Of a stretch of DNA of 31,985 nt, positions 1 to 9,965 are shown one piece after another; the first letter of the stretch is position 1, and each line of letters starts with the position of its first letter. This DNA is from an uncultured Blautia sp. (GTDB taxonomy: Bacteria; Bacillota; Clostridia; Lachnospirales; Lachnospiraceae). The notes under the pieces were generated by a model, which worked only from the letters and a program-made list of their open reading frames with translations, did no database searches and had not been told where the DNA came from. The DNA is taken from the NCBI GenBank assembly GCA_900556555.1, contig USPF01000026.1:1-31985 (forward strand). Reading direction: 5' to 3'. The position numbers and the translations under genes are program-made.

Positions 1-475
1 GCGGGGAACGGTCAAGGCCGGGCGTCAGCCCATTCATTTCAGCCTTGACGGTTTCCTGCCGTCCTGCTACTTTTCCCGGAGTGTGGCCACACATCTGGTC
101 ACGGTGTCCAGAGCTTTGGGACTTTTTGTCCCATAGGCCGGGGGCGGAGGACGAGGGACGGGGGCTTTCATAATACGCCCTGTCTGCTGCTGAAATCAGC
201 CCTTTGTTTCCGGCTTACCAGCCCCAAACAAAGCCCTGCTTTCCTGCCGCGTCAAATGCCCTTGCCCTCCCCGGCGGCAACGGTATTTTCAGGGCAACGC
301 CGACAGAGCGTATAACACACTACACTTTGCTCCGCAAAGTCGTGTGCCAAATGGGGCGCTGCCCCCTTTGGAAACCCCCGCAACAAACAGGTGCTATGCA
401 CCCAGCCGGGAGCATAGCGCCGTTTGTTGTCAGCAGCCCGTTTCACGGTCTGCGTGTAGTTCCTTGTAAACTGAC
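1..475. mobile_element. GC-rich non-coding remnant of an integrative/mobilizable element
   Basis: The first ~475 bases are clearly richer in G and C than everything that follows, and composition changes abruptly around 470-490. No convincing gene is present. Only short open frames without a clear ribosome binding site occur. The segment holds several strong stem-loops: GTCAAGGC at 11-18 pairs with GCCTTGAC at 42-49, and two tandem hairpins lie at 316-371. This resembles, from memory, the intergenic segments near relaxase genes in Tn1549-like conjugative elements of Clostridia. That family link is inference. No relaxase, integrase or att site is visible in the window, so the element's body would lie to the left. 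Confidence 0.5.
316..371. other. Two tandem stem-loops, possible transfer origin (oriT)
   Basis: Hairpin 1 has perfect 7-bp arms ACTTTGC (324-330) and GCAAAGT (334-340) around a 3-nt loop, and is flanked by a second matching pair, CACAC (316-320) and GTGTG (342-346). Hairpin 2 pairs CCAAA-T-GGGGC (347-357) with GCCCC-C-TTTGG (361-371) around GCT. Stacked inverted repeats in a non-coding GC-rich block are typical of nicking regions of mobilizable elements. The assignment as oriT is inference; no nic site can be proven here. Confidence 0.35.
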
Positions 476-540
476 CTAATGATGTATAAAGATATAATAT
501 CATCTTTGTTTTTCAGATACAAGTGCTATTTTACAATTAT

Positions 541-1179
541 TTACCGGATCCGCATGAGATTTCCTCTATCCATTTCATAGACTTCATCGCATAAAACATC
601 AATATCTTCTTTGTTATGACTCGCCATCAAAATGGTTTTTCCATCCTGTTTCAATTCCTCAAAAAAAGTACGCATCTCTTTGATACCTTTTTTATCCAGT
701 CCGTTCATCGGCTCGTCTAAAATTAAAATTGGCTGCTCCTCCATGATTGCCTGGGCAATTGCAAGCCTTTGCCGCATACCCAGAGAATAATTACAAACCC
801 GCTTGCAAGACTTAGGATCTAACCCCACTTTTTTCATGATATTATAGATGTGTTCTTTATTTTTAGGATTCCTTAATCGGTAAAGAAAATCCAGGTTTTG
901 GTATCCCGTATAACTCCGAAGAAATGACGGTTCCTCTATAATAATTCCTGCCTCTGTCAGCATATCTATATCTTTTTTCATCTGCTTGCTCTGTATCCAT
1001 ATCTGTCCCTCGTCAAGATAATATAACCCACAGATACACTTAAAAAGTACGGTTTTTCCAGAACCATTATATCCCACAATTCCGTATATTTTCCCCTCTT
1101 CACAGCTTAATGAAACATCATTTAATACCTTATGATTACGAAAACTTTTTGACGCATTCCTTACTCTGATAACTTCCAT
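541..1179 (-). CDS. ABC transporter ATP-binding protein (BcrA-like)
   Basis: This is a 212-residue ABC ATPase. The Walker A motif GYNGSGKT is at residues 36-43, the signature YSLGMRQR at 131-138, Walker B ILILDEP at 151-157, and the H-loop histidine near 188. The Q-loop region reads IIIEEPSF, as in ATPases of bacitracin/lantibiotic-type resistance transporters (BcrA family), where a Glu replaces the usual Gln. It is the last gene of the minus-strand agr-linked run and sits 17 nt after the second permease. An AGGAG site lies just before the ATG. It should power the two six-helix-type permeases at 1197-2832 to export a peptide or lipid-like molecule. The substrate is unknown. Self-protection against, or export of, the neighbouring secreted product is an inference from context. 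Confidence 0.9.
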   Translation of the reverse strand: MEVIRVRNASKSFRNHKVLNDVSLSCEEGKIYGIVGYNGSGKTVLFKCICGLYYLDEGQIWIQSKQMKKDIDMLTEAGIIIEEPSFLRSYTGYQNLDFLYRLRNPKNKEHIYNIMKKVGLDPKSCKRVCNYSLGMRQRLAIAQAIMEEQPILILDEPMNGLDKKGIKEMRTFFEELKQDGKTILMASHNKEDIDVLCDEVYEMDRGNLMRIR

Positions 1180-1196
1180 ACACTCCTCCGATTTTC

Positions 1197-2039
1197 CTAA
1201 TTTTCCTTTGTTACCTCAAAATCTACCCTTGTTATTTTCCATATAATAGCTCCCGACAATATTACACAAGCCAAAAGGAGTACCCCTATCATGCTGGATA
1301 TCGACGAAACATTAACTTCCGAAATCCGCATCCAGGAAACAGGTGAACAATAGACCAGCCATGTAACATCATCTCCAATATTTTCTATAACAATGGGCAG
1401 AATCACAAACAACATTGCCGTCACATTTGCCCACAATCTTGACACATAGAGACTAACCATAAACATCCATAATCCAAGAAATAAAATCACAAAACTACTG
1501 ATAAGAACAGACAATCCAAAAGCCTGAACAGGTTCAAACCTACTGATGATATCATAGGAAATCAGAAATGGTATTTGGTATTCACTCCCTGCATTTGTAA
1601 TCGATAAGGTATAAAGGACTTTTCCCCACCCCTCATCTAAAATAATATTGGGAAGCAGCAACATGCCGGATATCACTTCTGCAAACAATACAAAAACAAA
1701 CGAACTCAAGATAATAGAGCCAATTTGTCCAAAGACCCATCTGACACGCCCAGTACGGATAACCTGATACAAAGTCCACTCTTTCATGAAAGGTACATCA
1801 GAAAAAAAATACACCACTGCTGCCATAAACAAAATCACAAAATAGACATCAGATATTAAAAAAGGAAAAATCCACGGGCTAACCGGATAATCCACGAAAG
1901 CAGAAAAATCTTTCACTGGTGACAAAAAAATATGATAAATGACCCCTAAAAGAAGCAGAAGTGTAAACGTTTTTACTGAAAAAAATTTATCTATAAAAAC
2001 TCTCCAGGATAATTTTATTTGAGAACAAATCCTATTCAT
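1197..2039 (-). CDS. ABC-2-like permease subunit
   Basis: This 280-residue membrane protein has about six hydrophobic segments. One lies near the N-terminus after a basic stretch, two or three in the middle (LISDVYFVILFMAAVVYFF; ILSSFVFVLFAEVIS), and the rest towards the C-terminus, ending in a charged tail. This is the usual shape of ABC-2-type export permeases. Its start overlaps the end of the upstream permease gene by 8 nt, indicating translational coupling, and the ATPase gene follows 17 nt downstream. No soluble catalytic domain is seen. With the permease at 2032-2832 it should form the membrane channel of one exporter. Sequence similarity to a named family could not be judged by eye. 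Confidence 0.75.
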   Translation of the reverse strand: MNRICSQIKLSWRVFIDKFFSVKTFTLLLLLGVIYHIFLSPVKDFSAFVDYPVSPWIFPFLISDVYFVILFMAAVVYFFSDVPFMKEWTLYQVIRTGRVRWVFGQIGSIILSSFVFVLFAEVISGMLLLPNIILDEGWGKVLYTLSITNAGSEYQIPFLISYDIISRFEPVQAFGLSVLISSFVILFLGLWMFMVSLYVSRLWANVTAMLFVILPIVIENIGDDVTWLVYCSPVSWMRISEVNVSSISSMIGVLLLACVILSGAIIWKITRVDFEVTKEN

Positions 2040-2832
2040 AATTCATTTTCCTTTTCAATTTCATATAGATTAGCCGTTCAAAGATCACAGAAAAAATCAC
2101 GCCGACCAGAACAGCATATCCAAATGAATAAATATCATGATTCCATATATTATAAGTTGCATTAAAAATATAAATCAGGTTTATCTTTTCTACATTTCCA
2201 AACAATGCCCGGCTGTAATAGGAAATAAAATAAAATCCAATAAAAGGAACTGATAAGGTCAGCAGTTTATTATTCACAAACAGGGAGACAAATGCAGCAA
2301 GTAAAGCCAATATCCCTGCCAGGATTCCATATTGCAAACCAAAGCATGCAAAGTATAAAAAGTACCATTTTTTCTTTAATATCCAGCGGAATCCACCTAC
2401 CGTTAATGCACTCTGGCAGATGGCCTCATCTTCACGAAACCAGGGTAATTGCAAATGCAGGAAACTTACATACAGCAACATACCCAGCATCATCGTACAT
2501 GCACTTACCAGCATAATCGTGAGAACTTTTGAACATGTATAACTGCGTAAATTTCCCCTTTCAATCTGCAAATACCCATATTTTTGTTCAAAGTCTTCGC
2601 AAAAACAGCATACAAATGGAAACACGGAAAAAATCAGGCTCAGCATAAACAACATTCCATATACAATCAGCCACACTACATAAACAACACTTGTATCACT
2701 GGCAATTCCCTCTAATGAAGCTATGTACATAACCATGCTCACACCGGCTACTCCCATCAAAAACTTCCAGGAACAAATTGCCCTCCTCATATCTACCCGC
2801 AAATAATCCAGGAAATTTAATTTTCTTTCCAT
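2032..2832 (-). CDS. ABC-2-like permease subunit
   Basis: This 266-residue membrane protein has about six predicted transmembrane helices, beginning with WKFLMGVAGVSMVMYIASL and ending with a strongly basic tail after FGYAVLVGVIFSVIFE. A GGGAGGAAG ribosome binding site precedes the ATG. The start overlaps the end of the lipoprotein gene by 16 nt and its own end overlaps the next permease by 8 nt, so lipoprotein, both permeases and the ATPase are likely one translationally coupled transcript. Length and topology fit the second permease half of a heterodimeric ABC exporter. The substrate is not evident. Confidence 0.75.
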   Translation of the reverse strand: MERKLNFLDYLRVDMRRAICSWKFLMGVAGVSMVMYIASLEGIASDTSVVYVVWLIVYGMLFMLSLIFSVFPFVCCFCEDFEQKYGYLQIERGNLRSYTCSKVLTIMLVSACTMMLGMLLYVSFLHLQLPWFREDEAICQSALTVGGFRWILKKKWYFLYFACFGLQYGILAGILALLAAFVSLFVNNKLLTLSVPFIGFYFISYYSRALFGNVEKINLIYIFNATYNIWNHDIYSFGYAVLVGVIFSVIFERLIYMKLKRKMNYE

Positions 2833-3926
2833 ATAACTTCCTCCCCTGTCTGGGCATTTACAATATCCTGAAGGATTTGACCTGTGGAATTTTCCTTTGT
2901 AAAGAAAATCCAGACGGGCTGTACTTCATATTCTGATTCTGCGGCTTTGCTTTCCATATAGTGCAGGGATGCGGAAGTAACCTCATAGGTAGAATTTCCC
3001 AACAACATTCCATACTTCTTTTCAATTACTTCTGCTATTGCTGAAAAATCTTTTAGCTTATAAGTATCCTTTGTTTCTGAATAATCAAACACTTTTTCTA
3101 TTTGTAAAAACTGAATACCATTCTTGTTATATAGAACCTGAACAGGAGCGTTGTCTTCTGCTAATTCAGGCATTGTATCGTAAAATACATGATATTCTGG
3201 TATTCCTTCATACTCCTGCCGAATCAGAAAATAGTAAGAATCATCCTCTTGGGTCCAGTTTTCTTTATAGAACTGGCAGGCTTCATTCCCATCCATATCC
3301 ATAGCAGATTCTTCTTGCTTCATGGTTTCATAATCCAGTGCATAACAGGTATAGGTATCCTCTACCCTGATTCCCATATTTTCCAATGTGGCTTTTATAT
3401 TCTTAAAAGCACTCTCTTTTGTTTCAAATTTCAGATTATCTTCTGTGCTATATCTATCTGCATTGTAGTCTGAATATCCCTTTTGCAGACGAAAGGCATT
3501 GCTCACATAAACGTTAAACTTGGTTGAATAAGAGAGGGTCTCGGGAGAAACTGATAAAACACTCTGGTTTGTTCCTTCATACCATTTTTCTGAACCATTT
3601 TCTCCGCTATTATTAATTTCCTCATCTCCCATCAGACATTGCACGGCTTTTTCACAGTCAATTGTCTGTAAGGAAGCTGATATTTTTTTCATTCCACTGT
3701 TCTTTACTTTTTCAGGGACAGAAACCGCTGTGTCAAATTTTATATTACCTGCTTCGTGGCAATATTGTTCTGGAATTTCTACAGCAGACTGCGTTTCATT
3801 TATCACTTCATGATTGTGGCTTGTATTTATTCCGTTACTTATTTGGGGTTGTTTTTCTTCATGTTTACAGCCTGTACAAGCCATACCTAAGCATAACAGC
3901 AACACGGATAGTCTTTGTGATTTCAT
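2817..3926 (-). CDS. Putative lipoprotein of the agr-linked ABC operon
   Basis: This is a 369-residue protein starting at MKSQRLS. This start is chosen over an upstream in-frame ATG because TGGAGGAG lies 6 nt before it. The N-terminus is basic, then hydrophobic (LSVLLLCLGMACTGC), and ends at a Cys followed by charged residues. It looks like a lipoprotein signal, although the position -3 residue is Cys rather than the usual Leu. The mature part is acidic and has no motif I recognise. The C-terminal stretch PVWIFFTKEN...QDIVNAQTGEEVIW resembles the end of PepSY-like or YycH/YycI-like extracellular domains, which is only a weak resemblance. Overlap with the permease gene suggests it works at the outer face of the exporter, as a substrate-binding or sensing/immunity lipoprotein. 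That role is inferred. Confidence 0.7.
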   Translation of the reverse strand: MKSQRLSVLLLCLGMACTGCKHEEKQPQISNGINTSHNHEVINETQSAVEIPEQYCHEAGNIKFDTAVSVPEKVKNSGMKKISASLQTIDCEKAVQCLMGDEEINNSGENGSEKWYEGTNQSVLSVSPETLSYSTKFNVYVSNAFRLQKGYSDYNADRYSTEDNLKFETKESAFKNIKATLENMGIRVEDTYTCYALDYETMKQEESAMDMDGNEACQFYKENWTQEDDSYYFLIRQEYEGIPEYHVFYDTMPELAEDNAPVQVLYNKNGIQFLQIEKVFDYSETKDTYKLKDFSAIAEVIEKKYGMLLGNSTYEVTSASLHYMESKAAESEYEVQPVWIFFTKENSTGQILQDIVNAQTGEEVIWKEN

Positions 3927-3997
3927 GTTTTTCTCCTCCATTATTTGCACAAATCCTGGTTCAATAAACATACTGAACCAGGATTTTTATCATTCTT

Positions 3998-4420
3998 TTA
4001 CGGAGTATATCTACCTGTCACAGTCAGATGATTTCCATCTGCGGATGCACCAAATCTTGCCTTTAAATAATAATATACATTATATGGTGCATAAGATTTA
4101 TATGCCGCACTTTTTACAATATTTAAAGCTCCACTTCTCAAATCAACCTCATTTGATGTAACTGTATTATCCAGTTTCCTGGAGCGAACATAAATTGTTC
4201 CTGCCGCATCAAAACTTGTGGCCTTTGCATAATATCTCTGCTCACCATCTGCTTTCATCGTTTTTTTAGACATTGTATCGGTGTTTAATGATGGTTTTGA
4301 ACTAACTGTAAATATAAAATCAGTTGTCGCTGCATGGACAATTGGTGCTGTAGTTCCCGTAACACAAGCTGCCATTGCTAAAGCACAACCTAATTTTTTT
4401 AATGTGTTTTTTACTCTCAT
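3998..4420 (-). CDS. Small secreted protein with signal peptide, unknown family
   Basis: This is a 140-residue protein. The start MRVKNTLKK is preferred because GGGAGG lies 7 nt upstream of it. A classical Sec signal is visible: a basic N-region, a hydrophobic core (LGCALAMAACVTGTTAPIV) and a VHA|A cleavage site near residue 30. The mature ~110 residues are rich in Thr, Ser, Tyr and Lys, lack Cys, and end in LTVTGRYTP, a pattern suggesting a small beta-sandwich. I do not recognise a named family. It lies between agrB and the lipoprotein/ABC genes, on the same strand, 97 nt after agrB, so it is the best candidate for the quorum-regulated secreted product. It might be a bacteriocin-like or surface-acting protein. 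Toxicity is speculation. Confidence 0.75.
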   Translation of the reverse strand: MRVKNTLKKLGCALAMAACVTGTTAPIVHAATTDFIFTVSSKPSLNTDTMSKKTMKADGEQRYYAKATSFDAAGTIYVRSRKLDNTVTSNEVDLRSGALNIVKSAAYKSYAPYNVYYYLKARFGASADGNHLTVTGRYTP

Positions 4421-4517
4421 AATAATCCTCCCAATCTTTAGAATAGTGAAAATCAATGACAATTTTTATTATCTTTATTTTTCTTATGATTTCAATCCCT
4501 TTTGCACGAAATGACAT

Positions 4518-5102
4518 TTATCTGTCTTTTCTGGTCATTCTCCATATCTTTTCCACAATGCAAGGAATCTGTAGTCCTGCTGCCAGCAATATTCCTACCC
4601 CAAAACTGACAGCAGTTTTTCTGTTTCCAATCAAAAATAACAAGATAACTAATCCATTTAATACGCATACTAAGAAAATTGTCATCCTTTTCAAACTATG
4701 TTTCTCATCTTCATCCAGTGGCCTGTTTTCATGGTCTATAGGACTGAATATCATCAGATTTACTGATGCAATTCCAGCAGCCACCAGAATGATCCAATCG
4801 TGTGTCAAATGTGTTGCAAATTGGATGCACAGGGATAACAGTATAACTGAACTCATCATGCAATGAGATAGCTTCTTTGCATGATAGCCACCACTAAACT
4901 TCCGGAGTATCATAAACGGTATCACAACCAGGATACCTGTCCTTATACTTCCGAAGTAAAAACCAATGGTGCCTGCAAGGAAAAGCGGCAGTATCAATAG
5001 AACTGCACTATGTAATGCATATTCATAAAGTTCTTTTTCTTCCTCATGTATGGCATTATGCTGAATCATCCACTTTACCACTATCCCTGTACACTTCTCC
5101 AC
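4518..5102 (-). CDS. agrB: AgrB-family peptide-processing membrane endopeptidase
   Basis: This is a 194-residue protein of the AgrB family, the membrane cysteine protease that cuts the C-terminal tail off AgrD and helps form the thiolactone. The diagnostic block RKFSGGYHAKKLSHC carries the expected catalytic His74 and Cys81, seven residues apart as in Staphylococcus AgrB (H77/C84). Five to six hydrophobic helices flank it. The GTG start at 5100-5102 is chosen because AGGAG lies about 9 nt upstream and the resulting length fits the family. A longer ATG frame beginning at 5165 would overlap agrD deeply. The GTG shares one base with the agrD stop codon, so agrD and agrB are translationally coupled. 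The order agrD then agrB is the reverse of the staphylococcal operon. Confidence 0.92.
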   Translation of the reverse strand: MEKCTGIVVKWMIQHNAIHEEEKELYEYALHSAVLLILPLFLAGTIGFYFGSIRTGILVVIPFMILRKFSGGYHAKKLSHCMMSSVILLSLCIQFATHLTHDWIILVAAGIASVNLMIFSPIDHENRPLDEDEKHSLKRMTIFLVCVLNGLVILLFLIGNRKTAVSFGVGILLAAGLQIPCIVEKIWRMTRKDR

Positions 5103-5254
5103 TATTTCTTTCTCCTGTACTTCATTAATTCTTTCGGTGCCTTGGGCTGATAAAAAATGACGCAAGATGTAGTATTAGCTTCTGCACGCAGTACCATATC
5201 TAATGCATTTTTCATTCCCTTAGCAACCGATTTTGTAATCTCTTTCTTAACCAT
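5102..5254 (-). CDS. agrD: AgrD-family cyclic peptide precursor
   Basis: This is a 50-residue peptide with the three AgrD parts. Residues 1-25 form an amphipathic leader rich in Lys, Ala, Met and Val. The core NTTSCVIFY has a Cys31 able to close a five-residue thiolactone ring with Tyr35. The C-terminal recognition tail QPKAPKELMKY resembles the staphylococcal tail ending in VPKEL. The predicted mature signal is therefore a short N-terminal tail plus the ring C-V-I-F-Y, but the N-terminal cut is not visible. The start MVKKEITKS is chosen because GGGGGAGGG lies a few bases upstream. It is the first gene of the minus-strand run and shares one base with agrB. The kinase/LytTR pair encoded divergently is the expected receptor system. 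Confidence 0.9.
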   Translation of the reverse strand: MVKKEITKSVAKGMKNALDMVLRAEANTTSCVIFYQPKAPKELMKYRRKK

Positions 5255-5299
5255 GCCCTCCCCCTTCCATAAAAATTTGTCATTGATTTTCATATTCCT

Positions 5300-5369
5300 A
5301 TCATATCCGATTCTCAAAAAATTTTCGACCTGTTTGGTACGAATGAAAGAAATCCTGCCGATATTGGTA
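5300..5369 (-). promoter_or_regulatory. agrD promoter with weak -35 and repeats
   Basis: Read on the minus strand, a good -10 TATGAT (5300-5305) is preceded at 17 bp by a poor -35 TCGAAA (5323-5328), as at activator-dependent agr P2/P3 promoters. TACCAA occurs just upstream (5334-5339) and again 30 bp further (5364-5369) in similar context. These are candidate LytTR-regulator sites, although 30-bp spacing differs from the ~21 bp of AgrA sites. Activation is inferred. Confidence 0.45.
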
Positions 5370-5473
5370 TAATCTTCCTCTTTTACAGAAAAATATAAGG
5401 TATAACAGAACTTTTTGTATAAAATATTTAGTTTATTACATGTAGTACAGAATTATTCTGTTTTACTTTGTTC

Positions 5474-5502
5474 CAAATTGTATTTTCTACTGATACAATT
5501 TG
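5474..5502. promoter_or_regulatory. 10-bp inverted repeat before the XRE gene
   Basis: CAAATTGTAT (5474-5483) and ATACAATTTG (5493-5502) are a perfect inverted repeat with a 9-bp centre, ending 11 bp before the XRE GTG start. Its position fits an autoregulatory operator for the XRE protein. A second, shorter dyad CAGAAT-T-ATTCTG is nearby, around 5449-5461. Operator function is inferred. Confidence 0.5.
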
Positions 5503-5513
5503 TATGAAAGAAG

Positions 5514-5864
5514 GTGGCTCAAATAAAAAGTAGATATATCATTATGGGAAAACGTATCCAGACAAGAAGAAAAGAATTAAGAATTAAACAGGCAATGTTT
5601 GCCGAAACACTTAATATTTCTACAAATCATTTGTCTGCTATTGAAAATGGTAAAGAAAAACCAAGTTTTGATACATTTGTAAATATTTGCAATTGTCTTA
5701 ATGTCACACCGGATTATCTTCTTTTAGGAGATATGTATCCACTCAATATTCCTAAAAATATTGCCGCACAGTTGCAATTGTGCAGTCCTTCAGATATTGA
5801 GCTTGCCCAAGAATTTATCGAATTACTGGTACAGCGAAACGCAAACCGCCATACCTCAGATTGA
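5514..5864 (+). CDS. XRE-family helix-turn-helix regulator
   Basis: This is a 116-residue protein with an N-terminal HTH_3 domain. RIQTRRKELRIKQAMFAETL is the first helices, NISTNHLSAIENGKEKPSFDTF the recognition region, and CLNVTPDYLLLGD the usual end of the domain. The C-terminal ~35 residues are helical (SPSDIELAQEFIELLVQRN) and may dimerise. The GTG start is uncertain because the site AGAAGG sits too close to it. The in-frame ATG at 5544 (MGKRIQTRR) is the alternative but has no better site. It is divergent from agrD and upstream of the LytTR regulator, so it may repress one or both directions through the inverted repeat at 5474-5502. Placement of an XRE gene inside an agr locus is not the staphylococcal layout. 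Confidence 0.85.
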   Translation: MAQIKSRYIIMGKRIQTRRKELRIKQAMFAETLNISTNHLSAIENGKEKPSFDTFVNICNCLNVTPDYLLLGDMYPLNIPKNIAAQLQLCSPSDIELAQEFIELLVQRNANRHTSD

Positions 5865-5909
5865 TTTTAAACCAAAATCAACTAAAATCTGTCTTTTCAT
5901 ACGCATTTT

Positions 5910-5960
5910 TTGTATTTAACTCCTCTATATGGTATGATGTATATAAATCTACCCATATAG
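5910..5960 (+). promoter_or_regulatory. Promoter of the response-regulator/kinase pair with dyad
   Basis: A -35 TTGTAT (5910-5915) and a -10 TATGAT (5933-5938) are 17 bp apart, so the response-regulator/kinase pair has its own promoter separate from the XRE gene. An 8-bp inverted repeat, CTATATGG (5925-5932) and CCATATAG (5953-5960), brackets the -10 and predicted start, where a bound protein would block transcription. Confidence 0.55.
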
Positions 5961-5976
5961 AAAGTCTGGTGAAAAA

Positions 5977-6684
5977 ATGCGTATTTTAATTTGTGATGAT
6001 GATGAACTTATCCTAGAACAGTTAAAGAAATATATGACCCTTTTCTTTGAAACAAACCGTATAAAATGTCCTGAACTACTGTCCTTTACAAGTGGTGAGG
6101 ATTTATTAAATGATAAGGGAGAAAAAGATATTGTATTCCTTGATATTGAAATGCCTGGGATGAATGGAATTTATGTTGGAAATGAACTGAAAAAAACAAA
6201 TAAAAATGTCCTTATTTTTGTGGTGACTTCTTATTCTGAGTACCTTGATGAAGCCATGCGTTTTCATGTATTCCGCTACCTGTCCAAACCGCTGGACAAG
6301 CAGCGTCTTTTCCGGAATATGAAAGATGCCCTGGCTCATCTAAATACCACAACTGAGAAAATTCCTATCGAAACCCGTGACGGGATTCACACGCTTCCTG
6401 CATCGCAGATTATTGCAGTCGAAGCCCAGGGCAGAAAAGTAATCGTACACACCACTTTGCAGGATTTTATTTCTGTGGAAAATATGAACTACTGGATGGA
6501 ACATCTTCCCAAAAACTGTTTCTTCCAGACCCACCGCAGTTTTATTGTAAACTTTGAACATGTAGACAATTTTGACCATACAACTGTACATCTTGCAAAT
6601 CAACAGGTAATAGCATACTTAACTCGTAGAAAATACAGTGCTTTTAAAAATGCTTACCTTCTATTTCTGGAAAGTATGAGGTGA
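5977..6684 (+). CDS. LytTR-type response regulator (AgrA-like)
   Basis: This is a 235-residue response regulator. The receiver domain (1-~120) has the acidic pocket DDD at 7-9, the phospho-acceptor Asp56 in IVFLDIEMPGMNG, a Thr/Ser switch near VVTSYSE and the conserved Lys in LSKPLD. The C-terminal LytTR DNA-binding domain (about 135-232) reads IPIETRDGIHTLPASQIIAVEAQGRKV and FFQTHRSFIVNF, close to AgrA/ComE-type regulators. It should be phosphorylated by the kinase encoded 7 nt downstream and activate the divergent agrD promoter. A GGTGA site precedes the ATG. All key residues are present. Confidence 0.92.
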   Translation: MRILICDDDELILEQLKKYMTLFFETNRIKCPELLSFTSGEDLLNDKGEKDIVFLDIEMPGMNGIYVGNELKKTNKNVLIFVVTSYSEYLDEAMRFHVFRYLSKPLDKQRLFRNMKDALAHLNTTTEKIPIETRDGIHTLPASQIIAVEAQGRKVIVHTTLQDFISVENMNYWMEHLPKNCFFQTHRSFIVNFEHVDNFDHTTVHLANQQVIAYLTRRKYSAFKNAYLLFLESMR

Positions 6685-6691
6685 ACTATTT

Positions 6692-7990
6692 ATGGAGAGA
6701 ACCTTATTATTGTTTTTTAGTTTTTTCATAGAAGCTATTATTCTTTGGCAGTATGCCTCTAGTCTTTTTCTTCCTAGATACTCTGAAATAGTCAGTGCAA
6801 TATTTTTGTGTGCCTTATATTGTTTTCTCTTCTTCTTTTCGCTACTCCAATATCCACTTTTGAATGCAATTCTTTTCTTGGTGGTAAATATACTTTTTTT
6901 TCTTTTGTATTTTAAATTAACTTTTTCCTCTGCTCTCCTTCATTCCTCTATCATTACAGGAATTATGAGTGTATCTGAATTAGCTGCTATGGGTATTGTA
7001 TTAAAATTTTATCCGCAATTTTCTTCCACAGACAATATTGGGAGTGTATTTTTTGTGATGCTTAGTAAAAGTTTATTCTTTACTATTATTTATTTTCTGA
7101 CGCACATATTCAAACAAAAACAGGCGGTTCAGAATCCATATGACTCATCAGAATTGTTTCTAACACTGATTCCTCTTTCCTCCATTTTTGTTATGTTTAC
7201 TTTTCTAAACATTGGAGAAACTTCGTCTTTCGTTTCTCCGACAAATATCATGGTAACAATCAGTGCATTCTTCCTTATACTAACAAACCTACTGGTATTC
7301 GGAATCACACAATACAACCAGAAAAAAAGCCGTGAATTTACAGAAATGCAGCTGCTCCTTCAAAAAGAATCCGATTCTGCCGAATATTATAAAATGCTGC
7401 TGTCGCAAAATGAAAACCGGAGTATTTTAATTCATGATATCAAGAAGCACCTACAGTCCATCAAACTGTTAAATGAGCACGGGGAAACCGAAAAAATAGA
7501 ATCTTACATCAGCCATCTTATAGCGGCTTCTGATTTGAAGGAAACTGCCAGAATCTGTGACAATGCCATGCTAAATGCGATTTTGAACCGATGCCAGCGG
7601 CAATGTATGGAAAAGGGGATTGGATTTCATGCAGATATCCGCAAGAATCTGCTCCGCCAGATGAGCCAGAATGACCTGACCTCCCTGTTTTGTAATCTTC
7701 TGGACAATGCAGTGGAAGCTGCGGAAAACATCCCTGATTCTTTTATTGACCTTATGGTGCAAAAGAAAGAGAACACTCCCTTTGTTGTCATTGTCCTTGT
7801 AAATTCATGTAGAAGTATGCCGGATTTTGACCAGAACGGTTTTCCCGTTTCGCATAAATCCGGCATAGGCAGACATGGCTTTGGCATCAAAAGTATCCGG
7901 AAAGCAGTCGGCCAGTATCAGGGGGATTTAAAAATGTATTACGATGATACCACGGCTACATTCCATACGATTATAACCTTGAAGCAGTAG
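6692..7990 (+). CDS. AgrC-like sensor histidine kinase (GHKL type)
   Basis: This is a 432-residue kinase with about six transmembrane helices in residues 1-205, typical of peptide-sensing AgrC proteins. A dimerisation helix with phospho-His248 in ILIHDIKKHLQSI follows. The C-terminal GHKL ATPase has an N-box NLLDNAVEAAE (Asn near 335) and a G-box in GRHGFGIKSIRKAV. It lacks the classical HisKA domain, as expected for the AgrC/CitA-like group. The gene lies 7 nt after the response regulator and is almost certainly cotranscribed with it. Its ligand is predicted to be the agrD-derived thiolactone. The membrane part is very Phe/Leu rich and gives no ligand information by eye. Confidence 0.92.
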   Translation: MERTLLLFFSFFIEAIILWQYASSLFLPRYSEIVSAIFLCALYCFLFFFSLLQYPLLNAILFLVVNILFFLLYFKLTFSSALLHSSIITGIMSVSELAAMGIVLKFYPQFSSTDNIGSVFFVMLSKSLFFTIIYFLTHIFKQKQAVQNPYDSSELFLTLIPLSSIFVMFTFLNIGETSSFVSPTNIMVTISAFFLILTNLLVFGITQYNQKKSREFTEMQLLLQKESDSAEYYKMLLSQNENRSILIHDIKKHLQSIKLLNEHGETEKIESYISHLIAASDLKETARICDNAMLNAILNRCQRQCMEKGIGFHADIRKNLLRQMSQNDLTSLFCNLLDNAVEAAENIPDSFIDLMVQKKENTPFVVIVLVNSCRSMPDFDQNGFPVSHKSGIGRHGFGIKSIRKAVGQYQGDLKMYYDDTTATFHTIITLKQ

Positions 7991-8005
7991 CTAAACCGTA
8001 ATACT

Positions 8006-8054
8006 AAACGATGTGTGAAGTTTGAATAATTAACTCAAACTTCACACATCGTTT
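8006..8054. terminator. 20-bp perfect hairpin after the kinase gene
   Basis: Positions 8006-8025 and 8035-8054 are perfect reverse complements (20 bp, from AAACGATG to CATCGTTT) around a 9-nt loop, 15 nt after the kinase stop codon. It is too long for a minimal terminator and no T-run follows on the plus strand, so it may act as an RNA 3'-end stabiliser or processing site as well as, or instead of, a terminator. Confidence 0.6.
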
Positions 8055-8130
8055 GGTGTGTTTCACCTAAAAAATCAATCCTTTCATCCATAAAAGGTAT
8101 TAACATCAGGAAAGCATTTATAAAGTTCAG

Positions 8131-8568: not shown

Positions 8569-9915
8569 TTACTGAACAATACGTCTAACTGCAATATAGC
8601 TTCTGTATAATGCGTTAGCTGTGTATTTGATACCACCCTTTGGATATGGTGCACTGTTAGAAGCATGTACAATACCGCCATCTCCTGTAAGGATTGCTAC
8701 ATGACCAGGATATACGATAAGATCTCCTGCACGAGCCTGAGAATAATCAATTCCTACACCTGAGTAAGCCTGTGCATCACTTACACGTGGTAAGCTGTAA
8801 CCAAAGTGACCATAAATCTGCTGTGTAAATCCAGAGCAGTCAATACCATTTGTCAGGCTGTTTCCGCCATATACATATGGATTTCCGATGAACTGCATCG
8901 CATAAGCTACAACCGCTGCACCTGTTCCACTGTTATAAGATGGAGCACTTGGCTTGGATGGTGCTGCAGGTTTTGATGGTGCAGATGGTTTATTTGTATT
9001 GTTGTTTGCGTTATTGTTGTTATTATTATTATTTGTGTTGTTATTATTGTTAGTGTTATTGTTTGTATTGTTATTTACATTATTGTTATTATTATTTGTA
9101 TTTCCACCTGTAACAGCATTTCCGCCAGTGCTGTTATTCTGCTGCTGCTGAGCCTGCTGTTGCGCTTGCTGCTGTTTTCTTGCCTCTTCTTCCTGCTGCT
9201 GAATCTTCTTCAGCTCTGTATTCTGCTGCTGAATCAGTTCTTTGTACTGCTGAGCCTGTGCTTTTGCATTTGCAATCTGTGCTTCATAGTTAGATGCAGT
9301 AGCTTTAAATTCTTCCACTTTAACTTCCAGGCTTGCTTTTACACCTTCCTGCTCATTCTTAGCAGTTTCTAATTCATGTTTTTCATTTTCAAGCTGCTCT
9401 TCCAAATCTTTGACTTCCTGAACGATAGCCTTCATCTCTTTCAGTTCGTCTCTGTCGTACTGATACATTTTCTCTGTATTTTCTGCTTTGGAAAGCATAG
9501 TAGCTAAACTGTCAGATTCTAATAAAATCTGTGCCCAGGTATCACTACCACCGTTTTCATACATGTACTGAATTCTCTTCTTCATAGATTCATACTGTTC
9601 GTCACGGTCAGCCTCTGCCTGTACCAAATCTTCTTTTGTTTCCTGGATATCTACTTCTTTATTTGCGATTTCATCAGCTAATAAATCAATCTGAGTCATA
9701 GCTTCTACAATCTGCTGCTCTGTAGTGCTGATCTGTCCTAACAAAGCCTGTTTTTTACCTTCCAGGCTGCTTGCCTGAGCCTGTGCTGCTGAAAGCTTAT
9801 TCTGTGTTGCCGCTTTCTCAGCCTGTAAATCATCTTTTCTTGCTGCTGAAACAGGAAGAACCTGTGCTGCAGTCATTGCAAATATCAGTGACAGACATAC
9901 TAATTTTTTCTTCAT
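8569..9915 (-). CDS. Secreted PcsB-like NlpC/P60 peptidoglycan hydrolase
   Basis: This is a 448-residue secreted cell-wall hydrolase. A signal peptide (MKKKLVCLSLIFAMTAAQVLPVSA) is followed by a long coiled coil (about 25-245) with many Gln and Glu, as in PcsB/CwlO-type proteins activated by FtsEX. A low-complexity linker (about 250-330) contains long Asn/Thr runs and PSAPSKP repeats. The NlpC/P60 domain has catalytic Cys360 in GIDCSGF, His405 in YPGHVA and His417 in IVHASN. The start MKKKLVC is chosen over an ATG eight codons upstream because it opens the signal peptide and GGGGAAG lies just before it. It likely cleaves stem-peptide bonds during division. It is a single gene with its own promoter and terminator. 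Confidence 0.93.
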   Translation of the reverse strand: MKKKLVCLSLIFAMTAAQVLPVSAARKDDLQAEKAATQNKLSAAQAQASSLEGKKQALLGQISTTEQQIVEAMTQIDLLADEIANKEVDIQETKEDLVQAEADRDEQYESMKKRIQYMYENGGSDTWAQILLESDSLATMLSKAENTEKMYQYDRDELKEMKAIVQEVKDLEEQLENEKHELETAKNEQEGVKASLEVKVEEFKATASNYEAQIANAKAQAQQYKELIQQQNTELKKIQQQEEEARKQQQAQQQAQQQQNNSTGGNAVTGGNTNNNNNNVNNNTNNNTNNNNNTNNNNNNNNANNNTNKPSAPSKPAAPSKPSAPSYNSGTGAAVVAYAMQFIGNPYVYGGNSLTNGIDCSGFTQQIYGHFGYSLPRVSDAQAYSGVGIDYSQARAGDLIVYPGHVAILTGDGGIVHASNSAPYPKGGIKYTANALYRSYIAVRRIVQ

Positions 9916-9965
9916 ACTTCCCCTTTGCCTTTCATTCATTTATTTATTATACTCAAAAATTAATC

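Follow-up and report, generated by a model that had tools for sequence, protein, structure and literature searches.

A putative agr-controlled, bacteriocin-like effector with a candidate immunity cassette in an uncultured Blautia species and related Lachnospiraceae

Contig USPF01000026.1 of an uncultured Blautia sp. (Lachnospiraceae; assembly GCA_900556555.1), analysed here as a window of 31,985 nucleotides, carries an agr-type quorum-sensing locus at positions 541–7,990. On the minus strand, agrD and agrB are followed in the order of transcription by genes for a secreted protein, a lipoprotein, two permeases and an ATPase of an ATP-binding cassette (ABC) transporter; the genes for an XRE-family regulator, AgrA and AgrC lie on the plus strand and diverge from agrD-agrB (Table 1). 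According to our analysis, it is likely that the output of this locus is under quorum control and, with somewhat less confidence, that the secreted protein and the lipoprotein with its ABC transporter represent an effector and its immunity. The two taken together, as a quorum-controlled, bacteriocin-like, Sec-secreted effector with cognate immunity, form a reading that is a little less certain again, though still favoured. Open reading frame and family scans recovered all ten genes at the coordinates of the first-pass annotation, which had described agrD and agrB divergent from an XRE regulator and an AgrA/AgrC-like pair, and the family matches agree with that description. The tandem of secreted protein, lipoprotein and ABC genes behind agrB was likewise as described, including a mature secreted protein of about 110 residues.

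In the proposed scheme, as judged from the protein families, AgrB would trim and cyclise AgrD into an autoinducing peptide (AIP), and AgrC would sense this peptide and phosphorylate AgrA. Phosphorylated AgrA may then activate a promoter-like element located between agrB and the gene for the secreted protein, and expression of the effector, the lipoprotein and the ABC transporter would follow. The effector would leave the cell via the Sec pathway and act outside it, most likely on related bacteria, while the YycI-like lipoprotein would recognise the effector made by the cell itself and the ABC complex, of LanFEG-like type, would remove this effector from the membrane. The XRE regulator may provide a second input, probably repressing, at the agrD/XRE region.

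Distribution of the cassette and its linkage to agr

In 397 genomes of the family, a lipoprotein profile matched 20 places in 17 genomes and a secreted-protein profile 26 places in 20 genomes; the larger regions around these places were read with iterative hidden Markov models. Four of the secreted-protein places, inside long frames (G113, G138, G150, G319), were not fetched, and 19 of the 22 examined fall in 16 cassette loci. At all 16, the lipoprotein gene lies in the gene run of the secreted protein, and 15 have the full ABC set, the other one reaching a contig end. The order secreted protein, lipoprotein, permease 1, permease 2, ATPase is conserved, with the sole exception of L075, where the lipoprotein comes last; in L028 the secreted-protein gene is frameshifted. 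Of the 20 loci that the lipoprotein search led to, 11 showed no secreted protein, and at two of these a contig end cuts the locus. Class-wide, a secreted-protein match at E ≤ 1e-6 occurred in 2 of 371 genomes, both with a complete cassette. Three candidate loci were rejected: L077 and L080 hold no cassette and probably represent signal-peptide matches, and at L078 both the secreted protein and the ABC set are of another kind.

Linkage to agr was assessed at 27 loci, found by the lipoprotein or secreted-protein searches without use of agr. They include partial loci (L031, a lipoprotein without ABC genes; L029, with an ATPase remnant only) and loci cut by contig ends (L042, L043, L044); L078 is not among them, and the degenerate or cut L002, L003 and L005 were excluded from the counts. 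Both agrA and agrC lie within ~5.5 kb of the cassette at eight of the 27 (L029, L030, L032, L037, L042, L073, L074, L076), and agrB does so at four (L042, L073, L076 and, in broken form, L074). The AgrB search returned 30 genes, in 10 of the 24 genomes searched; the number of agrB genes expected within 5 kb of a cassette is ~0.1 (P ~6e-6, as are all adjacency P values a figure that treats loci as independent, which relatives are not). The agr arrangement beside the cassettes differs between loci, and in L073 agrA, agrC, agrD, agrB, the secreted protein, the lipoprotein, two permeases and the ATPase form a nine-gene run on one strand.

At 19 of the 27 loci there is no adjoining agrA/agrC pair, so the cassette is modular rather than obligately linked to agr, and quorum control would not apply to the effector in general. 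The first-pass annotation had named occurrence of the ABC genes and the secreted protein independently of agrBD in related genomes as a finding that would speak against it; this is borne out in part, and the linkage in relatives stands above chance but is not a rule. The same applies to the seven minus-strand genes that had been taken for one signal-plus-output unit: they do form a run, but the internal promoter-like element and the 19 loci without the pair speak against a single obligate unit.

Starting from AgrA, 15 loci in the 397 genomes encode a protein at least 62% identical to that of the window. Five of these adjoin a lipoprotein with a complete or decayed ABC set (L029, L030, L081, L083, L086). 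In L078 and L089, other secreted proteins come next, with an ABC ATPase further on, L082, L084 and L087 have agrDB without the cassette, and the remaining loci have other genes beside them or are situated at the end of a contig. The more distant L095 (AgrA ~50%) combines agrBD and agrCA with a complete cassette. L081, L083, L086 and L095, found through AgrA, are outside the 27.

A promoter-like element at outputs of the agr clade

The promoter-like element between agrB and the secreted-protein gene contains, in the window, a −35 box TTGAAA (4,490–4,495) and a −10 box GATAAT (4,468–4,473) separated by 16 bp. Across an alignment of 11 copies, GATAAT never varies, TTGAAA hardly does, and ten copies keep the 16-bp spacing. 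Just upstream of the −35 box stand paired half-site blocks, TGACCA... and TGTCGTTT..., 21 bp apart, a spacing typical of LytTR sites. The window holds one strong copy only (E 9e-24, this copy being part of the model), which a promoter scan placed among the two best promoter-like matches of its region.

A profile of eight copies, run with nhmmer, revealed further ones in L029 (a second copy), L078, L084, L085, L088, L089 and L095. The 11-copy model matched 19 places in 12 of the 397 genomes at E ≤ 1e-4, a line set after the list was seen; weaker places, which extend to 46 genomes at 0.01, were not used. Strong copies are present in 11 of the 17 genomes with an AgrA at least 50% identical and in 1 of the 380 others (Fisher 2e-16); with the model genomes left out, the proportions are 4/10 and 0/379 (2e-7). 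The element also precedes other secreted proteins in L078, L089 and L130 (in the last after another agrB) and, at a distance of 0.9 Mb from agr, an orphan lipoprotein gene (L129). This suggests that it marks the outputs of this agr clade, presumably as a promoter to which AgrA would bind.

The 3' end of the element, a motif first spotted by eye in the window, recurs in inverted orientation just upstream of the agrD ribosome-binding site, and the two copies (4,447–4,467 and 5,272–5,292) constitute a 21-nt inverted repeat, 95% complementary, that flanks agrBD. The inverted copy before agrD was found in 6 of 6 orthologous modules (region p ≤ 0.007 each, own copy excluded); a search for the same motif on the other strand of the six modules was negative, and the copies showed no co-variation within loci. 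The agrD-side copy also forms a plus-strand promoter-like match at 5,277–5,304.

It seems to us very improbable that chance alone placed agr next to the cassette in a variable genomic island and that the element reflects common descent of the intergenic DNA. Most loci lack agr, conjugative-element-like DNA (window 1–480) adjoins the cassette, and some agr-less copies of the element lie beside agrB remnants (L081, L086, the second L029 copy), as shared ancestry would give; however, the linkage recurs in several agr arrangements far above expectation, the element also occurs away from any agrB found (L028, L129) and before unrelated genes (L078, L089), and its GATAAT box does not vary among the aligned copies.

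Several other genes stand behind the element. At L078:14294–16301 it lies ahead of a 618-aa gene whose TIR-like and STALD-like parts are similar to Thoeris defence proteins, possibly a quorum-controlled defence. In L132 a copy (E 6e-5) lies before a 225-aa membrane-like open reading frame, and weaker copies (E 1e-3 and 3e-3, under the line used) stand ahead of the gene for a small secreted protein rich in Cys and farther along. At L082:10118–12626 the orthologous agrDB and the element are followed by a glycosyltransferase-like gene, identified by eye, and a different ABC set, a possible replacement of the output.

Proposed effector and immunity, and gene loss

Signal peptides were called by eye or by a simple script rule, without a dedicated predictor. 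The AlphaFold model of the secreted protein is a beta-sandwich (pLDDT 77; residues 32–140 mostly confident), and no Pfam, NCBIfam or PADLOC family matched the protein beyond chance. A profile search of 5.8 billion proteins, which relies on shared 5-residue words and therefore misses distant members, yielded 39 members including the window's own, none informatively named. The C-terminal motif G-[RK]-[YW]-T-P is exact in 33 of the 39, and two more end in YTP; of the other four, three are fusions to part of permease 2. Among the distant members from the loci read here, the last three residues are WTP, WCP, WAP, WNP or WSP, and in some cases others. In the three fusions (P0008, P0009, P0011), the N-terminal half of the secreted protein is joined, in frame or shifted as judged by eye, to the C-terminal end of permease 2; as natural deletions, they would take out the effector and immunity genes together. 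The lactococcin 972-type bacteriocins (PF09683) are likewise small, unmodified, Sec-exported proteins encoded next to ABC or membrane genes, but PF09683 matched none of 16 secreted-protein members at E ≤ 0.5. Judging from these comparisons, the secreted protein is an undescribed family.

For the lipoprotein (AlphaFold pLDDT 79), the best Foldseek match was 5coz, EUBREC_2869 of Eubacterium rectale (E 1e-17), with a similar fold and a weak sequence match. It was also matched to YycI (2o3o; E 2e-6 to 2e-5, probability 1.00), with modest TM-scores (0.33–0.35 by query, 0.46–0.49 by target), and PF07435 was found in 1 of 25 lipoprotein members, weakly (E 0.03). The genes for YycI and YycH belong to a WalKR context, whereas the lipoprotein considered here is encoded in an ABC/effector cassette and not with WalKR. 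The best curated NCBIfam match of the ATPase was the LanF-type lantibiotic-protection family TIGR03740, although at 168 bits the cut-off of 309.75 was not reached. No Pfam family was found for permease 1 in 15 homologues and no NCBIfam match for the window protein; permease 2 of the window had no Pfam or NCBIfam family and no PDB relative by sequence, with one chance NCBIfam match in 15 homologues. The arrangement resembles LanFEG with LanI in that a secreted product is accompanied by one ATPase, closest to TIGR03740, by two different permeases and by a lipoprotein; it differs in that the ATPase falls under the cut-off, the permeases have no family, the lipoprotein is YycI-like and the effector is a Sec-secreted folded protein. 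No modification enzymes were recognised nearby by eye, no scan having been aimed at them.

The first-pass annotation had left open whether the ABC transporter and lipoprotein serve as exporter or immunity of the secreted protein. That they export or mature it, as the quorum-controlled product, we consider unlikely. The secreted protein and the ABC genes do occur together wherever the protein is convincingly found, in a fixed order except for L075, yet the protein has a Sec signal of its own, and complete permease/permease/ATPase sets stand without an adjoining secreted protein in L001, L032, L033, L034, L037, L081, L083 and L086 (in the case of L034, the genome does encode a secreted protein at another place, L042). 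Because the effector carries a Sec signal and the lipoprotein/ABC genes are repeatedly present without it, the evidence argues against export and for immunity, and the ATPase is nearest, under the cut-off, to a lantibiotic-protection family. The earlier proposal of an agr system wired to a secreted-protein output holds in outline, through the linkage and the element, with the exporter role and the single obligate unit given up.

In L136, two tandem cassettes can be compared directly. Their secreted proteins are 58% identical in amino acids and their lipoproteins 79%, against 98–100% for the permeases and 99% for the ATPase, and the gap between the secreted-protein and lipoprotein genes is 96% identical in DNA. 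The signal peptides of the two secreted proteins differ by 0 synonymous and 2 non-synonymous changes, and their mature parts have dS 0.47 and dN 0.42. This comparison singles out the secreted protein and the lipoprotein as a putative allele-specific pair. Two diverged secreted-protein copies are also present in L038 and, likewise, in L071. It could be argued that the secreted protein is a public good, or a surface or host-interaction protein, which the lipoprotein and ABC transporter sense or recycle in signal relay or uptake; we regard this as improbable, though less so than export, in view of the paired divergence of secreted protein and lipoprotein beside a conserved ABC set and of the diverged copies and effector-less lipoprotein/ABC sets, which resemble effector/immunity evolution.

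The effector/immunity assignment also draws on gene loss. Among 14 agr-linked loci, compiled in a hand-made table (the window, L004, L029, L030, L032, L037, L042, L073, L074, L076, L081, L083, L086 and L095), five have both agrBD and an intact secreted protein and seven have neither, 12 of the 14 being concordant (Fisher 0.026); the two discordant loci are L004 and L074. In L029, L030, L081, L083 and L086, agrA/agrC and the lipoprotein are kept, and agrBD and the secreted protein are absent. Fragments of agrB (with the end of agrD) survive in L081 and L086, and others lie beside the second element of L029, which indicates past losses in these three; in L030 and L083 no remnant was found, and only absence can be stated. 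The genomes of the five loci (G383, G078, G265, G266) gave no secreted-protein match elsewhere, and AgrB or pieces of it occur elsewhere in G383 and G078, the two covered by the AgrB search. This pattern fits cells that still hear and resist but no longer signal or attack. Together with the divergence in L136, this asymmetry of loss leads us to assign the lipoprotein and ABC transporter to immunity rather than export.

Several observations weigh against a quorum-controlled effector with immunity, in addition to the 19 loci without an agrA/agrC pair. The promoter scan of the region showed no enrichment (14 found, shuffle mean 10.1), a strong copy of the element is missing in 6 of the 17 AgrA-clade genomes, and the top-scoring copy (L028) belongs to a genome, G381, without a clade AgrA at E ≤ 1e-50. 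In the agrD promoter, the core site beside the −35 box is seen only weakly, with a region p of 0.019 for the window and 0.008 for L089, and in four other loci it is not significant. On the effector side, the fold of the secreted protein has no significant structural match among solved folds, and dS in L136 is high as well as dN, which points to segment replacement or conversion rather than positive selection. Finally, of the five loci only L081, L083 and L086 retain the lipoprotein and ABC genes in intact form; in L029 and L030 the ABC genes have decayed, so that the putative immunity is kept whole in three of the five.

Features of the locus and significance

The features of the window are listed in Table 1. 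The cut-offs of their families were passed by AgrB and AgrD and those of the domains by AgrA and AgrC, and the expected catalytic residues are present in AgrB, AgrA and AgrC. The named relatives are Lachnoclostridium sp. An131, Eisenbergiella and a Eubacterium metagenome-assembled genome.

Table 1. Genes and putative regulatory features of the agr locus (positions in the window)
Feature	Position	Strand	Characteristics
ABC ATPase	541–1179	−	Last cassette gene; PF00005, 112 bits
ABC permease 2	1197–2039	−	6 hydropathy-predicted transmembrane spans; conserved after permease 1
ABC permease 1	2032–2832	−	5 hydropathy-predicted transmembrane spans; conserved in cassette
Lipoprotein, proposed cognate immunity or receptor	2817–3926	−	Lipobox-like N-terminus ...GMACTGC
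Inverted repeat, 16 nt (94%)	3951–3986		Between secreted-protein and lipoprotein genes
Sec-secreted protein, proposed effector	3998–4420	−	140-aa precursor, mature ~110 aa, ends GRYTP
Promoter-like element, ~97 bp	4445–4540	−	Between agrB and secreted-protein gene; conserved in unrelated contexts
agrB, AIP-processing protease	4518–5165	−	PF04647, 120 bits (cut-off 23)
agrD, AIP precursor, 50 aa	5102–5254	−	TIGR04223, 47.6 bits (cut-off 19)
Inverted copy of the element's 3' end, TTGTCATTGATTTTCA	5273–5292	+	Just upstream of agrD ribosome-binding site
Palindrome ACAGAATTATTCTGT, candidate XRE operator	5447–5461		Proposed from sequence, without a statistic
XRE-family regulator	5514–5864	+	PF01381, 48.7 bits
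agrA, LytTR response regulator	5977–6684	+	PF00072 and PF04397; D56
agrC, GHKL sensor kinase	6692–7990	+	PF14501, 75.5 bits; 7 hydropathy-predicted membrane spans; H248

In AgrB, H95 and C102 are seven residues apart, a spacing that we take to correspond to that of the catalytic residues of S. aureus. The true start of agrB is probably a GTG near 5,102, overlapping the agrD stop, because AgrB orthologues measure 188–193 aa. The predicted thiolactone region of AgrD presumably lies around CVIFY, ahead of QPKAPKEL, with ring boundaries set by analogy. At L074:9300–9500, where agrB is broken, an AgrD-like peptide, GQASLYLMFQPKEPE, has Ser in the usual place of Cys, which suggests a lactone rather than a thiolactone. 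Orthologues of the XRE regulator adjoin the same agr clade in L078, L081, L082, L084 and L087, and sites related to the palindrome occur upstream of XRE in L078, L082, L084 and L087. The hairpin at the 3,951–3,986 repeat, placed between the effector and immunity genes, may be an attenuator or an mRNA end; the promoter/terminator scan of the region did not call it as a terminator.

The locus shares with the AgrBDCA systems of Staphylococcus and Clostridia the AgrB His/Cys pair, an AgrD-family peptide, a LytTR regulator and a GHKL kinase. It differs in its D-B order divergent from XRE-A-C, so that the earlier statement of a layout unlike the staphylococcal agrBDCA operon is borne out, and in its adjacent dedicated output cassette, the known agr output being an RNAIII-type RNA. 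The single-operon order agrBDCA was not matched in the window, and order varies in relatives too; an Rfam scan gave no match in the locus.

Downstream of agrC, a near-perfect 23-bp inverted repeat at 8,003–8,057 is probably a terminator. Adjoining the locus, 8,569–9,939 encodes a secreted NlpC/P60-like cell-wall hydrolase, its domain named from sequence, with a long Asn-rich linker. At the other end, window bases 1–470 have a GC content of 58.5%, compared with 36% in the locus. Positions 1–480 are 77–79% identical, over most of their length, to stretches of gut Firmicutes plasmids, and this conjugative-element-like segment stops directly beside the cassette ATPase.

No description of the cassette or the element was found in the open-licence PMC literature. 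A rumen review reports agrA/agrB in 199 rumen genomes and calls it unclear how quorum sensing affects gene regulation there (PMC10838665), and another paper suggests that bacteriocins of a Lachnospiraceae strain may be regulated by cyclic lactone autoinducers (PMC11352710).

Overall, the chances seem to us about even that Clostridia hold an undescribed Sec-secreted, bacteriocin-like family, marked by a C-terminal G-x-[YW]-T-P, whose members come with an immunity lipoprotein that is matched to them and YycI-like, and with an ABC transporter of a generic kind. On this reading, an agr/XRE circuit would have captured the family in one Lachnospiraceae clade, via a dedicated promoter element which drives other secreted proteins as well, and several lineages would then have become "armoured eavesdroppers," having dropped signal and weapon together and kept receptor and immunity. 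If this is true, a definite output of quorum control would be available for gut Lachnospiraceae, with a promoter signature that can be searched for, and the field of bacterial antagonism would gain a secreted-protein family and an immunity lipoprotein fold. In addition, the natural gene-loss genotypes would be available for social-cheating theory in the gut.

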